From Hexactinellida sp. DTS-2022 (lineage: Eukaryota > Porifera > Hexactinellida), in NCBI GenBank assembly GCA_028753945.1, contig JAPNXP010000001.1, positions 7,492,501-7,556,500 of the forward strand: a DNA stretch of 64,000 nucleotides, in the 5' to 3' direction. Position 1 is the first letter of the stretch, and every line of letters starts with the position of its first letter. Positions 54,996 through 63,224 of the stretch are shown here, piece by piece. Position numbers and translations under genes: made by a program. A model generated the notes under the pieces. It searched no databases. It was not told where the DNA came from and saw only the letters and a list, made by a program, of their open reading frames with translations.

Positions 54996-57900
54996 TTAAT
55001 AAACAGAATTATGAGCATTATTAACTGGATACAATGCGTCATAATGATTAGAACAAGATCCAGAGAAATTAATACTATGAAACAACACAACAAGGTGTCT
55101 CCCTCCATATATTGGATCCCTTGGTTTACCTATCATATTCTCAGTATACACATCAGTTATTACCCACTTAGAAGGGTCTGTAACAACAGCATTAATGTAA
55201 CTAACATTAATACCAGCTAAGATTCCAAACATAATAAGTTCATTAACAGTTCCCCAAGAGTAATTACGCCGCATATTACTCAAGTGTTGCTGAATAGTAA
55301 CTGCATTATAGCCTTGGATCCCACAGAAAGCAGCAACATAAGGACTTTGTTCAAATGTGTCTATTAGAGAACCACGGATATTATGATGCTCACTTTCATC
55401 ACCGAAAATAATGTGAGACAATGTTCTAAAGAAACAATTCCCATCACTTGTTACAGGAACTATCCTGAAATTAAACCGATCTCTTACATTTGTACGCATA
55501 AAATCATAATAACCAGTAGCTGAGACTCTAGACCCAGTATAGTTAGTCGGTCTTAAAGGTATTCTCTGTAGATTAATGCATGCTGCTAATGACTGTCTCA
55601 TCGCAAATGTGAATGAATTAGCATTGTCATATGCAACTACAGGAGGCAGCACAGGAGTAGGGATGTATACATGACTAACAATTACATCCTGAATATCCTT
55701 GGTTGTATTATCAATTGGTATTTGGTCAATATCAATAATATCAAGTTGACTAGTAGCATGTGATATAATTGGTTTATTATCCACATTACTACAGTCACTA
55801 ACAACAGTTCCAAGAGAAATCAACATTGGCTTATGATCACTAAAGTATGATTCATAAAAACCAGATGAACAGGTCAAGTTTTTAGTGAATACACAATCAA
55901 GCTGAGATCCATAATTAGTGGATACTCCAGACAAAGATTGCATCATCCCTATATTTGCAAAATACTGTATCAATGTATCTCTCTCAGGAGATCGGGCAAA
56001 TAAATCTATATTGAAGTCCCCAGTAATTATCAAGGGATCAGAGTTATCAATTTTACTTAGAACCTGATCAAGCTCAGAGTAAAATTCCTTCATTGGGGAT
56101 TGTGGTGATCGGTATATAGACATTACCACGACAGGTTTATCGATTATCATGGGATCATAGAACTGGATAATCAATATCTCGATCCTAGCGCCATTATGAC
56201 AGCCTGAGTGTGCAACTAAAGACTTACACACCGCTGGATTTCGGGAGTATATGTGTGTACCAGAACCAGGAAGTCTAGCACTACTATCAATTCTACCAAT
56301 GAGAGTATGACCAGGGATATTAAAGTTATCAGTGGCTAAAGTCATTGTCTCCTGCAAGATTAACACTTGGGATTGCAATATGAGTGGATCTAAGGTCAAG
56401 TCTTCCCAGTGTTTGTTCAATGAACGAACATTGTGTACATAGATATCTGGACTAGTTAGTGGAATAGACCAGATAATATCACAGTGTTCTCTTAACCGCT
56501 TAAGTTCTAAGTGGACAGGATCTTTTTCAGATAACTTATTAGTTAGTTTTAGAATACCAACTACAAACAGACCTGATGCAGATTTAGCCCTACTGAGCGC
56601 AGTGTATAACGCATTACGTAGCAAACGTATTTCTATATGGACTACAACACAATCGTAAGTATCGCCTTGACTCTTATGAATTGTAAGAGCTTCAGCTACT
56701 ATGAAAGGAAACTGCTTCCTAACTATCTTATAACAACTCACACTTTTCCCTCTCTGGAAACGTCGTGTTTCCAATCCAATAGGGGTCCAGTTCCTTGAAA
56801 TTGCACTATCTCTAAGATAACGATGTTGAGACTTCGCTCGTTTGTCCTTTCCTACAGTAGGATCGTCAAACTCAATCCAGAGGATACAGGGAACTCGTTC
56901 CAGAGAATCGCTCTTGGTACCATAAACTATTCTCTTCAAGAGGCCAGTAGCCCCATTAACCAGACCATCTTGTATATCGTTATTCAGCGTCATGAGGTAT
57001 CTAGCGCCCAGCTTCAAGAAAAGCTCATAGGGTAGTCCCTGGGTGTCACACACCTTTAGGTGTTTAATAATGTTACTCAGCTTGTCAGTAATACCACCAG
57101 CAGTATCTCCTACTAAAGAATCAATAGCTATAAATCTAAAACCTTCAGTGGTTAATGCATTGAGAACAATTTCGTTATGAGCATTAACACTGGCGTTAGT
57201 ACTAAACAGATGGATAGATTTTATGGGAAGATTCTCATAAGAATCTTTCGCAATAATTCTACTGGTAAAAAGATTTGTGTCATCCTCAGTTAAACAACAG
57301 TTAGCAAAATTGTTCAATGCTAATGCAAATTTCTGATCATCTTTTTGTCTCATTATTTCCGTCAGTTCTATATATGAGAATTTTTCCCAAAGGTACGGAC
57401 CAACCAGTCCGTCGTAATTATTGGTACTGGATACTGAAATTTGAAATACATAGCTATCCTTAACCGGACGTAACTGATGGAAATCTCCAACACAGATGAT
57501 GGAGACACCACCAAAGTCCAGTGAATTATCCATAATGGCTTTCAATCGCTTATTAACCTGAGACAAAATTTTACTACCAACCATGGATATTTCATCTATT
57601 ATGATAACTTTCAAACAGCTTAGCTTACTTCTTAATGTGTTACAAACATCAGAAGACAGGTTGGGCATTTCGCCGTTAAACTCCGTTACAGGTAGAGCAA
57701 ATGCAGAATGTAGTGTCATACCACGGATATTAAAAGCAGCTTTACCTGTAGGAGCTGTTAGCAGTACCTTAATAGCATCAGGCTTAGTGCCAGGTAGTGA
57801 ATTCATAAATCTTACCAAACCTTCGTATAAGACTCGTACCACCGTACTCTTACCAACACCAGCACCTCCTCCTATATAGAGATACATAGGCAGCTGCTTA

Positions 57901-60900
57901 ATAGTCTTAAAGCAGTGCAGAGTGTGGAGGAATACAGTCCGCTGAACCTTGTTCAAACTGCGACACATCTCAAGGAATACCTCCTCAGTATTCATGTTAG
58001 GAATAGTGAAGAATCCTCCTACAGATTTAGTTCCGGGGTCACTATTGGGATCTACAGTCCAGGGATTGTCGTTCCCTGGATTGTCTACCTGAAAGTCAGT
58101 ATCCTCAATAACCACTGCACCCTCATTGTTCATTATTTCCTCAATAGCAATCCCATCAAAGTTTAGCTCATCAGGGTCCAAGTCCTCGAGGATATTAATA
58201 GCCTCGTCAATTGAGGATTGGTCTCTGCTTTCAAATAGTTCCCTATTCTGAGTAATCAGAGTAAGATGGGTAGCAAACATAGACTTAAAGTCGATATTGT
58301 CAGTATCATTAGTGTCAGTTCTCCATGGTACAAACAGCATTAACTGTTCTCTATAAAAGTTAACTTCGTCCTGTATAATACTATACCTTCTAAATCGGAT
58401 AATTTTAGCTTTACGACGGAGTCTCATAAAACCTGTATCTTTGAGAGGAAATAATCTCGGATTATCGACCAGGGACGCTGCCTCGTCTTCCATATTTTCC
58501 TCATCAAAGTCGGGATTAGTTTTACACATACGCTTACTAGATTGGAATTCATACCAAGCTGCAAACTCAGCTAGGCATGTTTCCTCTAACTCGTCAGGTC
58601 GTTGCATGTAGTGCTCAATTAAACCTGACAGAAGTATATCTACAGAATCCTGTTCCATACCCATTAGAACGGGTTTGGACTTGAGTATCCTAACCCGTTT
58701 ATTAGCAGGATTGGTGTTAATATAGACATTAGCTCTACTGCACTTAGAGAGAGGGAGACTGAGGAGATGGTAAGAAACCTCCTGAGCTGATACCTCGCTA
58801 CAGCTCTGAAATTTGTATGCTATTCCCCTCAGTCTCTCCTTAATTGTGGCATTGCCTGCTTTCAGATGCATTAAGGCATCTCTCAATAACTTAGACATCC
58901 CACGCTGGGACTTTCCGATATACGAAATAACGTAAACAGCACAAGCGTATGGATCTAATATGTATTGGAGATCCATATTAGCTTTCCATAAATGCAAAAT
59001 AGTCGTATTATGAGCATTGATCCGCATTTCATTCAAATTTCGTTTCAGAAATATAGTTGGTCTATTTATACAAGATCTCAATGCAGTTATGTATTGCTCT
59101 TCGGTAACATAGAGTTCATTAAAGAAATCCTGTATCGTTATACTACCCAAGTCAGTATCGCTCTTATCATAGGTGTCAATTAGCGTATATATTTTCTTAG
59201 CAGTCTCCTTAAGAGCTGCATTAGCAGCTATCTCCTCTTTGGTAGCCGTACTGGCATCAAACTCCAATGGTTCTAGAATTTTACTTGATACCATTGGAGG
59301 GTACGGAATACCAAACCTACAGCGCCGAAACGACTTTTTTTTATAACACGTATTTGTGTGCTTATGTCGCTGTAACTTAATATCATTCTCAGTTATTATA
59401 CTAGTCTCATCTGGCAATTTACATGAGATAGTACGATCAATAAAATCTATTACTTCATTTAAAGGATTGTGATCATACTTAGGGGCATCTTGTACCCAAA
59501 GTAACGAATGCACATGTGGGGACCCTCTTTGCTGGAATTCTATTCTCAAATAGTAATCAGTCAATTTACCAAGGGGACTAACCTCTGATCGAAGCACCTT
59601 AAATAGCTCCTTCGAGCGATGATCAAAGTACCTAGCACAAGTGACAGGATCTCTCCTTATCAGATCTGCTCTCTCGCTCCACTGGAATTCCAGAACCTCT
59701 TCAACAGACAGCTTAACGTCATCTAGGATCTGTTTCAGTATCCTGAGTAGCTCTAGCCATTTAGTCTCAGCAGCAGACAGAGTTAGAAAGAACGTGGGAC
59801 ATCCCAGCTGTCTTATCATAGACATCAGTTCTCTCTGTTTCTGCTGCCAGAATGCAGGTGTAGACCGGACTTGCTTCAAGAACTTAAAAGCCTCATCGTC
59901 CTCAACCATTCTCTCCAGATTCTCGTCATTGAGAACATCAGACACAGTTATAGCCTGTCCGTCATTAGACTTTGTTTTTCTCATACAAATACTGATGGCA
60001 CTGTTAAGACTAGCTGTTTCTACCAGTTTGTACTTGAGAAGCAGCAGAGGGATGTTAGTGCTACATCTCCTATCATATCTAGGGAAGTCTCATTAGAAGT
60101 ATTTAAAATAATATTGAAACTTAGTTAATTGTAATTTAAATAAACAAATATGTTATTGGACCATGGATATAACATAGTAATTAAACTTTAAATGATATCC
60201 ATGGTTGAGTAAGAAAATTATGTATATAGTAGAGATTGAGATTATAAGTATATTATTAGATAATAACTAACCTCAAGATGTCAGACTTTGATTTCTTGAG
60301 GATAGTCAGGTCCTCCGGTAAGTCTCTCTTGAGACCAGCAAACACACAAGGGTAAGCTAGTTCCTCTATAAACCTATCCGTGGTTAAGTACAGAGGCTTC
60401 CTCCCTTCTCCAGGAGCCAATTTCATTAGCAGGTTCTCATTAGACAGCAGCAGTGTGTCTAGAGAACCAGGGTTAATGGGGAGATCATCCTTGGTCTCAT
60501 CCCAATCGTCAATCTCCTTCAACAACTCCTCAAGGTTATCGAAGAGATCCTCAATACCAGGAATAGTCTCAGAACCATGTTCCTCTTGTTCTTCATCTAT
60601 AACTATATCACAAGGCTCGTCATTCGGGTTAACAATAAAATTAACATTACCAGAACCAGTTCGTGTTACAGAGCTAACCCAGTTCTCTGATACTACTACC
60701 TTCTCTAGCTTGAAGAGCTCAGTGGTAGAGAGATAGAGAGCGGCTTCTAACACTACATTCGGTCTTATCGTTTCGTATAAATAGGGTTTCGCGAACGATA
60801 ACTTACGAAACAATTGTAACTGAATGGTTTGGGACTGTAAGAATGTCCTAGGTAACTGATTAACGGTCTTATCTACGTCTATGGGAACATTAACAACCAT

Positions 60901-63224
60901 TCCATGCAGTCCGTGCTGTCTCTCCCTGCCCAGAGATCTGATGTTCATGAACTCGTGTCTGGGAGATACCAGTCTCTGTTCAATCACAGTCAGACCAGTT
61001 AGCTCAGGAGGGATCTCGGGGAAAGACAAGCCACGGCATAACGCTATCTTAGGGACTCTGCCATCTTTGATGTTAATGAGACAGGTCTTACATACATACT
61101 CAATGTTAACTGTCTCATAGAAAAAAACCTAAATAGAAATAATTATAGAATAAGATTAACCGAAAATTATATTTAATACCTACATAATCAATAAATCATT
61201 TATATTTTAAATCTTATTATATTTAAAGAAATTGAAAATAATACCAAAGGAGTATAATATATTTACCTGTTTTACGAAATCCTGTTTGCACTCATTCGTT
61301 GAAACAAGTTTCTCTCTCTTAAGAATCACTACTGTTTTCCTGAAATGGAGACATCCACAGCAAGAACAAACAAAAGTGGGCCCTTCAGCAATCTCAGATA
61401 GATATTTGAGGATAATTGACTTAAGTGCACCTCGCATAGTTCTATACCTATCTAACTCTGCGAGGTTGTGCTTCATTTTCTCTTTAGAGTCTATCCGTTT
61501 CTTGGCAATAGCGTCATTATGCTTTGCCCTCTCAGCCGGATCCTTGAGCTTATCTGCAACAGCGGCATTATGTTTAGCCCTCTCAGCTGGATCTTTGAGC
61601 TTATCTGCAACAGCGGCATTATGTTTCGCCCTCTCAGCTGGATCCTTGAGCTTATTCGCAACAGAGGCATTATATTTAGTCCTCTCAGCTGGATCCTTGA
61701 GCATATTTGTCATTCTCTTCGACCTATCATTATTATACTTCGCTCTAGTTTCGGGATCCTCTCGATCTTTTTTGACATTCGCAAGTCTTGTTTCGTTTTC
61801 ATTATCACGAAACTCAGTATCATCCGTTCTCCTCTTTTTAATAGCATCTTTCTTTCTATCCTTAGTAGCTCTATACCCTTTCCTTTTGCGAGACTTAGGA
61901 GTAGAGATCGGTGCGCTCTTGCTAGGAGTAGCACAACTAGAGGAGCACTGACTAGACAGCCCGAGATCATTCATCGGTACAACCTGAGAAGTAATCGGGG
62001 TACGCTGAATGTCCTGGCTTAGATCAGCATTCATTTCAGATTCCGAATCTTCGTTAGTTTCTCCTTGCGAGCATAACTGTACTTCCATTGGATTCAATTC
62101 TCGGATAGTAAGATCAGTTGAAATATCCATAGTATCTAAAATATTGTATTGTGGGTATAGGGATAATTTAAATAAAATACCCAATACCAGTGGCGGCGCT
62201 AGCCAGCCGCCACTGGTGGGGCACAATTATGTCACAGGTGGGGCACTTACATTAATGAGGTGGGGGGCACTTACATTAATGAGGTGGGGCACACTTAAAT
62301 TCAGGTGGGGCACAGGCCCCACCTGGCCCCAGCCGCCCCACCCTCGCCCCGCCTCTGCCCAATAATCAAATTGTATTTCAGCTTATTTAACTTATAATTA
62401 AATTAAGTTTGAATTGTAAATAATTAAAACAACAATCGGCTATATTAATTAAAGTAAGTATAATTATTACAAAAGATATATAAATATCTTATTATTTCGT
62501 TACTAATGTGAATAATAGAATTGAAGTCATAACTATAAATGTGCAAATGTTTAATTAATTAACAGTAAGTATAATTATTACAAAAGAGATATAAATAGTT
62601 TATTATTTCGTTACTAATTTGAATATTATAATTGAAATCATCAACTGTAAATGTGCAAGTGTTTTCATTGCACTTCTGTGAAACACATCTTCACTTAAAA
62701 AAAAACTAACAGTAATTATCAAGCAGCATAGTTTGTAATGTAATATAATACGTATACCTCTTATAGTTACAGACTTATAGTATCAGTGTACTTAGTGTAT
62801 GGAGAAGATGGTTGATTTAGATAAAAACCGTTAACTATTAATTTTAAGAATTATCGATGACATCCTTTCATAGTTAATTAATTAAATTAATTAAATGGAT
62901 AATTCGCTTGGAAAATATGCAAAAATACATAATGAATAAACTTCATAATTAAATGACAATGAAATAATTACCGGTTTCAGAAGAGAAGTCTTCAGAAGAT
63001 GAGGCATTAGGATCTCCTCCGGTAGGTCCAGGATTTAACTCTACTCCGCCGATCACAAGGAGCATCCTGATTACAACCAATAACAGGCAACACGATAGTG
63101 CTAATATCGGATCCGCCTGTTTCGTAATGGGGTAGAAATTATGTGTCTCATCACAGGCTCTAGGTAATCTACCTTTTCCTCCCCAGCCTCCAATTCGTGA
63201 TCTCCAAAGCTCAAGAGAAATCAT
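54996..63224 (-). CDS. Helentron Rep-helicase-endonuclease-OTU protein
   Basis: Exons 63224-62972, 62135-61267, 61128-60272 and 60078-54996 join in phase to 2353 aa; all introns are GT-AG. Order: hydrophobic stretch (39-58) plus 2A-like GGVELNPGP (59-67); four LKDPAERxK repeats (~230-300); Cys cluster VCSCCGC (~342); CKTC and FPEIPPELTGL of the DUF6570-like region; HUH box PHVHSLL (~848) and YVISYIGK tyrosines (~1042, 1046) of the Rep nickase; PIF1 helicase with GGGAGVGKST (~1396); APE-like endonuclease (~1880-2080) with ILQET, TGDFNID and SDHKP; OTU protease (~2198-2345) with DGNCFFR and NHYD. Rep nicks and rejoins DNA, and the helicase unwinds it for rolling-circle transposition; roles of endonuclease and OTU in Helitrons are not settled. 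I chose the ATG at 63224 because it joins in phase. Confidence 0.9.
62188..62357. mobile_element. hAT-like MITE inside Helitron intron 1
   Basis: CAGTGGCGGCGCTAGCC to CCGCCTCTG with flanks CCCAATAC and CCCAATAA (7/8, 8 bp). The interior repeats GTGGGGCAC. It creates a false upstream extension of the transposase ORF to 62226. Confidence 0.75.
62448..62680. repeat. ~115-bp tandem duplication in Helitron intron 1
   Basis: Two copies of AGTAAGTATAATTATTACAA... ending AATGTGCAA, at ~62455-62560 and ~62568-62672. No coding. The rest of the intron (62681-62971) is AT-rich without features. Confidence 0.65.
62972..63224 (-). other. First coding exon with 2A-like motif
   Basis: 84 codons plus one base. 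Residues 39-58 are strongly hydrophobic and run straight into GGVELNPGP. The classical 2A core is D-V/I-E-x-N-P-G-P; here the Asp is Gly, the rest is intact. The donor ACCG|GTAATT joins the acceptor TTTTAG|ATACTATGG at 62136 in frame, making ...SSET-DTMDISTDL. Confidence 0.75.

Follow-up and report, generated by a model that had tools for sequence, protein, structure and literature searches.

The window, the whole 64,000-nucleotide stretch of Hexactinellida sp. DTS-2022 DNA that was analysed, carries towards its end, on the minus strand, an apparently intact Helentron in long open frames. The largest of these, of 1,697 codons (54996-60089), encodes a Helitron_like_N (Rep) domain (59499-59942; PF14214, E 4.1e-28 in the window protein), a PIF1 helicase (57297-57956; PF05970, E 2.3e-24), an endonuclease domain (55824-56384; PF03372, E 4.4e-8, and PF14529, E 2.9e-8) and an OTU-like C-terminus, recognised by eye only and unlisted by Pfam at E 0.01. 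The endonuclease domain is what marks Helentrons, and PF14214 and PF05970 are found in one frame of 1,697 amino acids with the AP-type endonuclease C-terminal. Rep, PIF1 helicase and endonuclease are likewise what the element has in common with the endonuclease-bearing Helitrons, or Helentrons, treated in the accessible part of PMC4067079.

Further 5′ on the same strand an open frame with a DUF6570 domain (60256-61128, ends approximate; PF20209, E 2.7e-15) lies in the region of exon 3, and is preceded by exon 2 (61267-62135), here termed ORF1, which encodes a basic region, a 51-nt tandem repeat (KDPAER..) and a zinc-finger-like CSCCG end, and whose donor, CAG/GTAAAT, was assigned by inspection. 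The repeat (61505-61706) is in frame and consists of KDPAERAKHNAAVADKL-like units, the number of which varies among the copies read. Elsewhere in the window are host-like genes for a dynamin-family GTPase (PF00350; 9151-10832, plus strand), a member of the Frag1/DRAM family (PF10277; 20835-21704, plus strand) and a RING-finger protein (PF13920; 41725-43017, minus strand).

The leader exon and its predicted junction

Exon 1 (62972-63224, minus strand) comprises 84 codons plus 1 nt and its translation is free of stops. The 84-residue peptide contains MLLVIGGVELNPGPTGG and has the layout MISLELWRSRIGGWGGKGRL...ILALSCCLLLVVIRMLLVIGGVELNPGPTGG...SSET. Its N-terminus, MISLELWRSRIGGWGGKGR (63168-63224), is followed at leader residues 40-58 by a hydrophobic stretch (63051-63107; mean Kyte-Doolittle 2.95) that abuts the 2A/StopGo core GGVELNPGP (63024-63050), where skipping is predicted between the last Gly and the Pro. 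R8 and I11 are invariant in 8/8 aligned leaders, as are M1, L55, G59, E62, N64, P65, G66 and P67. The octapeptide GVELNPGP fits the consensus (D/G/C/N)(V/I)ExNPGP given in the accessible part of a survey of viral sites (PMC12846837). The first-pass annotation had described a Helentron whose N-terminus carries a 2A-like motif, and the 84-codon exon, with GGVELNPGP and with Helentron domains downstream, bears this out.

That annotation also had the exon in phase with the transposase. The predicted intron (62136-62971, 836 nt, phase 1) has its GT donor at 62971 and its AG acceptor at 62136, and the junction reads ..SSET-D-TMDIST..; a 24-nt tandem repeat is present within it at 62240-62301. In the subfamily to which the window copy belongs, A, an in-frame junction is kept at 8 distinct loci, the window copy included, that have an intact core and both splice sites inside the DNA examined, with introns of 563-919 nt plus one of 7,921 nt. 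A tandem triplet with decayed cores (L010-L012) also has the in-frame junction; no acceptor was found for L004 and L009 within the 1,752 nt examined, and L013 gave no donor match. Helentron B (L037) has an intron of 118 nt and the in-frame junction ..DSEL-ETMDVS... The intron is absent from subfamily F copies L046-L048, where the leader runs into ORF1 as a single frame that reaches TPISSQ.VPLNDL..SSQ, the landmarks found after the splice in A (TPITSQVVPMNDL..SSQ). Among the 23 F copies taken as full-length (alignment covering positions 1-64, identity no lower than 72%), 18 have leader and ORF1 in one open frame of 349 codons or more; the frames of the remaining five measure 68, 195, 195, 208 and 221 amino acids, and in three of these five a stop falls within the match. 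Because of the in-frame A junctions and the uninterrupted F frame, taken together, it is very likely that exon 1 is spliced in the window as predicted.

Helentron copies, mosaic structure and selection

A leader or a recognisable piece of one lies upstream, on the same strand and within 12 kb, of 30 of 150 Helitron_like_N matches tested (38 of Helentron type, the 35 best and 77 others, from 151 in all). All 30 fall within the 38 matches of Helentron type, a band delimited by visual judgement of bit score and open frame in which two matches represent one locus, and none is among the other 112. The annotation had made its proposal depend on the region being conserved and in frame in related Helentrons, and the motif is indeed kept in related copies. 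The distance of the leader from Helitron_like_N is mostly 2.1-3.4 kb; two leaders are 6.9 and 10.2 kb away, and three of the 30 match just a short part of the query (C11:1374844, C12:2675862 and C6:4299506). Eight of the 38 gave no leader match in the same 12 kb on the same strand, among them one with a 1,699-amino-acid frame (C1:9199953), for which none was seen in the 501 nt inspected upstream. Decayed cores also occur, with NSGP in L010-L012, NPGF in L015 and NPGL in L026. The three leaders L010-L012 (G000:C11:9014641-9033017) have the same sequence, are 8.5-9.6 kb apart and all have NSGP; they are a local amplification of one decayed copy.

The two ends of these elements have diverged to very different extents. 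Between subfamilies the frame with Rep and helicase is 94-96% identical (dS 0.10-0.13) and the leaders are 44-55% identical (dS from 1.9 to saturation), while ORF1 has a dS of 1.1-3.0 in its N-terminal part and of 0.14-0.32 in its zinc-finger-like part. Given diverged leaders and ORF1 N-termini against a near-uniform Rep-helicase frame, the copies are, to judge by these comparisons, mosaics in which an old, diverged 5′ part is joined to a near-uniform 3′ part, with the switch inside ORF1 before CSCCG. Two F copies differ by a dS of 0.43 in the leader versus 0.11 in the N-terminal part of ORF1. When the mosaic copies L036, L037 and L046-L048 are set beside window positions 54996-63224, their 3′ part (DUF6570, Rep and helicase) is about 92-97% identical.

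Within the leader the core stands apart. Between the window and subfamily B it has a pS of 0.955 and a pN of 0.0 over its 9 codons. For 27 copies with a recognisable core, compared within families with B (L020) counted with A, and with the decayed or truncated L010-L012, L015-L019, L022-L024 and L050 left out, variable codons with synonymous changes only versus those with nonsynonymous changes number 17:4 in the core and 47:94 in the rest of the leader (Fisher P 5.4e-5); adding the decayed L010 and L015 weakens the difference to 15:7 versus 45:96 (P 0.0017), and both P values are guides only, since the copies were partly chosen for the core and related copies are not independent. The pattern of substitution indicates that the core is under purifying selection despite saturated synonymous sites.

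Related leaders on other elements

A degenerate DNA pattern for the core, which also allows Glu at the core Asp/Gly position and omits the Val codon GTG, occurs once in the window versus not at all in 100 shuffles, and at a minimum of 114 sites in the genome (112.4 Mb, 18 contigs) versus none for the reversed pattern. Forty-six of the 100 sites itemised out of the 114 are without a leader match and are mostly of GD type; these 100 include none on contig C18, so that ‘no pattern’ on that contig reflects the itemisation. Leader-peptide matches number 116 at E up to 10, the weakest of them being fragments, and the genome counts are lower bounds. On these counts the GGVELNPGP exon in the window is neither due to chance nor unique. 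What recurs is a module of about 65 residues (60-67) with the order MISxExWRxRIGxW, linker and GG(V/I)ExNPGP, roughly 25-55% identical between families. The sites without a leader match were sampled at three places (L051-L053), on further elements, and at one of these (L052, 8 copies) a GD-type leader starts MGVDLCTLRNHIGIFNSR and is a distant relative of the others.

The presence of related leaders on further types of element is a point that was absent from the earlier annotation. In family C one frame of 879 codons (L040) holds both the leader and a PF20700 (Mutator-like) transposase (E 1.1e-37). When all 116 PF20700 matches are considered, a leader is present within 3 kb at 10, corresponding to 9 loci, and at each locus 499-585 nt separate it from the nearest PF20700 match downstream. 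Three of the Mutator-like copies (L025, L029 and L030) carry EHPGP. Family D (L042-L045) is a dispersed repeat with the leader and an OTU domain (PF02338, E 2.3e-9), the two sharing one repeated block but being in separate frames; no Pfam transposase was detected up to E 10 in the frames tried. In L042 the OTU domain is followed, at a distance of about 3 kb, by a Ulp1-like peptidase with a PHD finger, which is outside the block shared with L043. For families C and D, the stretches examined (L040 and L038 for C) yielded no recognisable terminal inverted repeats.

In a tree of 18 leaders, which is weakened by long branches, the Mutator-like leaders group together with support (97/94), as do the OTU leaders (100/98), and no single Helentron group is resolved (2 changes; together in 8% of bootstrap trees). 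Recent swapping of leaders between element types was considered and is not supported by this tree. A more tentative proposal, which we regard as a real possibility but stop short of favouring, is that the leader is an ancient portable StopGo cassette, common to at least three unrelated lineages (Helentrons, Mutator-like elements and the OTU family), that it would act in trans with the 2A serving to detach it, and that it would be the first instance of ribosome skipping on DNA transposons.

Probable ribosome skipping and the alternatives to it

Gly at the core Asp position had been taken as a sign that activity might be weakened or lost, and it had been suggested that an alignment of other genomic copies would reveal whether Asp is ancestral. 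Gly, not Asp, is present in all 15 Helentron copies aligned. The accessible part of the viral survey, in which the core is widened to (D/G/C/N)(V/I)ExNPGP, reports G at p12 as prevalent as D (PMC12846837), and since viral StopGo sites use the two equally the substitution is no sign of weakness, contrary to the earlier expectation. Upstream context still matters, as in the same text the change of D12 to Ala abolishes activity of the FMDV 2A and G-type sites are thought to require compensating residues upstream (PMC12846837). The LLxIGG before the window core resembles motif 5 of that survey, (A/G/S)G ending at p12, though the four motifs assayed in the part available exclude it (PMC12846837). 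As rare variants including H at p16 were over 95% active in natural viral contexts there (PMC12846837), the EHPGP copies of the Mutator-like elements are, by analogy, not obviously dead.

We consider it probable, from sequence comparison, that exon 1 is the translated N-terminal leader of the Helentron and that GGVELNPGP functions as a StopGo (2A) site at which leader and transposase part. Ribosomes would make a 66-residue leader and release it at ...NPG, and translation would resume at the Pro to give a separate, leader-free Rep/helicase/endonuclease protein of roughly 2,250-2,300 residues; the ‘2.3-kDa’ remainder spoken of in the first-pass annotation should accordingly be read as a product of about 2,300 residues. 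The leader is likewise found at the beginning of a Mutator-like transposase and in the OTU repeat, so that 2A would allow one kind of leader to ride on unrelated proteins. Where present, the hydrophobic stretch is separated from the skip point by 5-9 residues (8 in A and B), and so would still sit in the ribosome tunnel at the time of skipping. A freed hydrophobic leader might then resemble a tail-anchored membrane peptide, and the stretch would be a signal anchor only on protein that had escaped skipping.

The WRxRIG start common to the different element types suggests that the leader itself does something, perhaps in trans, and this bears on an alternative that would make it a by-product. 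Excess transposase is often harmful to its element, and a 2A that halts a share of the ribosomes after the leader would lower the transposase dose. A model described in the accessible text of PMC4981915 allows for 2A terminating translation by some of the ribosomes. A pure throttle of this type has no need of the MISxExWRxRIG part, which is remote from the core yet conserved between element types, and we think it unlikely to be the explanation.

Less plausible still is that routing to membranes is what has been selected, with partial skipping yielding a cytosolic or nuclear transposase and a membrane-routed fusion, as for the dual-targeting signals of sea urchin NLRs. The SpNLR2A of the accessible part of PMC4981915 is a shown case of an N-terminal 2A doubling as a signal sequence, and the maximum 19-residue Kyte-Doolittle value, 2.95 for the window copy, is 2.5-3.0 among scored leaders of types A, B, C, D and GD, which have a strong hydrophobic stretch before the core. 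In subfamily F, represented by 23 full-length copies, the core (GGIEINPGP) is intact in the three copies read, but the two leaders scored have maxima of only 1.05 and 1.13, without a transmembrane-like stretch; in addition, a secretory route would seem of no obvious use to a transposase. Since F keeps the core without such a stretch, membrane targeting is not general, strong as the hydrophobic stretch is in the window copy, for which the annotation had suggested that a fraction of the product might be steered to membranes. Skipping being the common denominator and membrane targeting not, this counts against dual targeting of the sea urchin type as the general purpose. Least credible is that exon 1 is a plain hydrophobic N-terminus or a cryptic 5′ exon, with NPGP kept by descent without recoding or the exon untranslated, for while ORF1 has its own ATG (62130) at which translation could start without exon 1, A and B have identical amino acids in the core with synonymous sites saturated, constraint on the core exceeds that on the remainder of the leader, the leader-ORF1 frame is continuous in F, and the pattern is in strong excess over its reverse (114 versus 0).

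Compared with known systems, a leader freed by StopGo from a DNA transposon protein would be a departure. Most known cases of recoding by 2A are from RNA viruses and retrotransposons. Its occurrence on APE-type non-LTR retrotransposons was reportedly described by Odon et al. in 2013, and L1Tc is said to have it likewise. Those elements are also cellular and mobile with an in-frame 2A, but they are of the RNA-copying class I, whereas the rolling-circle and Mutator-like elements here are of class II. The paper of Rao et al. from 2025 is, judging by its title, a survey of eukaryotic 2A sequences and may include cases from DNA transposons. The hosts named in the accessible part of a 2024 review are viruses, non-LTR retrotransposons and NLR receptors (PMC11512398). 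In titles, the beginnings of abstracts and passages of PMC5009743, a search outside which the 2013 and 2025 papers lay, no description of a DNA transposon with a natural 2A was found, and titles and abstract beginnings (including that of PMC4067079) make no mention of a 2A leader on known Helentrons.

With the StopGo sites of RNA viruses, as presented in the available text of PMC12846837, the window has in common a core with G at p12, the motif 5-like (A/G/S)G and hydrophobic, L-rich residues before the core; the viral sites separate parts of a polyprotein, whereas in the window the 2A comes after the N-terminal leader of a DNA transposon. SpNLR2A, in the accessible part of PMC4981915, is likewise a 2A-like sequence at the N-terminus, for which a second role as a signal has been predicted or shown, but has 26 residues, belongs to an immune receptor and was found by an Asp-type motif; the leaders described here span 60-67 residues, have a conserved WRxRIG start, carry Gly in the core and precede a transposase. 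If the StopGo reading is true, a conserved 2A on Helentrons and Mutator-like transposons would extend ribosome skipping to class II elements and raise the question of why one leader peptide should be common to elements whose machinery is unrelated. Diverged yet conserved, the leaders, one of them without a transmembrane-like stretch and one with HPGP, would provide a natural set for exploring the requirements of Gly-type 2A. The leader, the Helentron proteins and the Mutator-like protein had no confirmed relative in the collections viral_contigs and genome_contigs, which says little about animals as these are viral and prokaryotic. The GG-type core, taken purely as a pattern, matches four stretches in viral_contigs.
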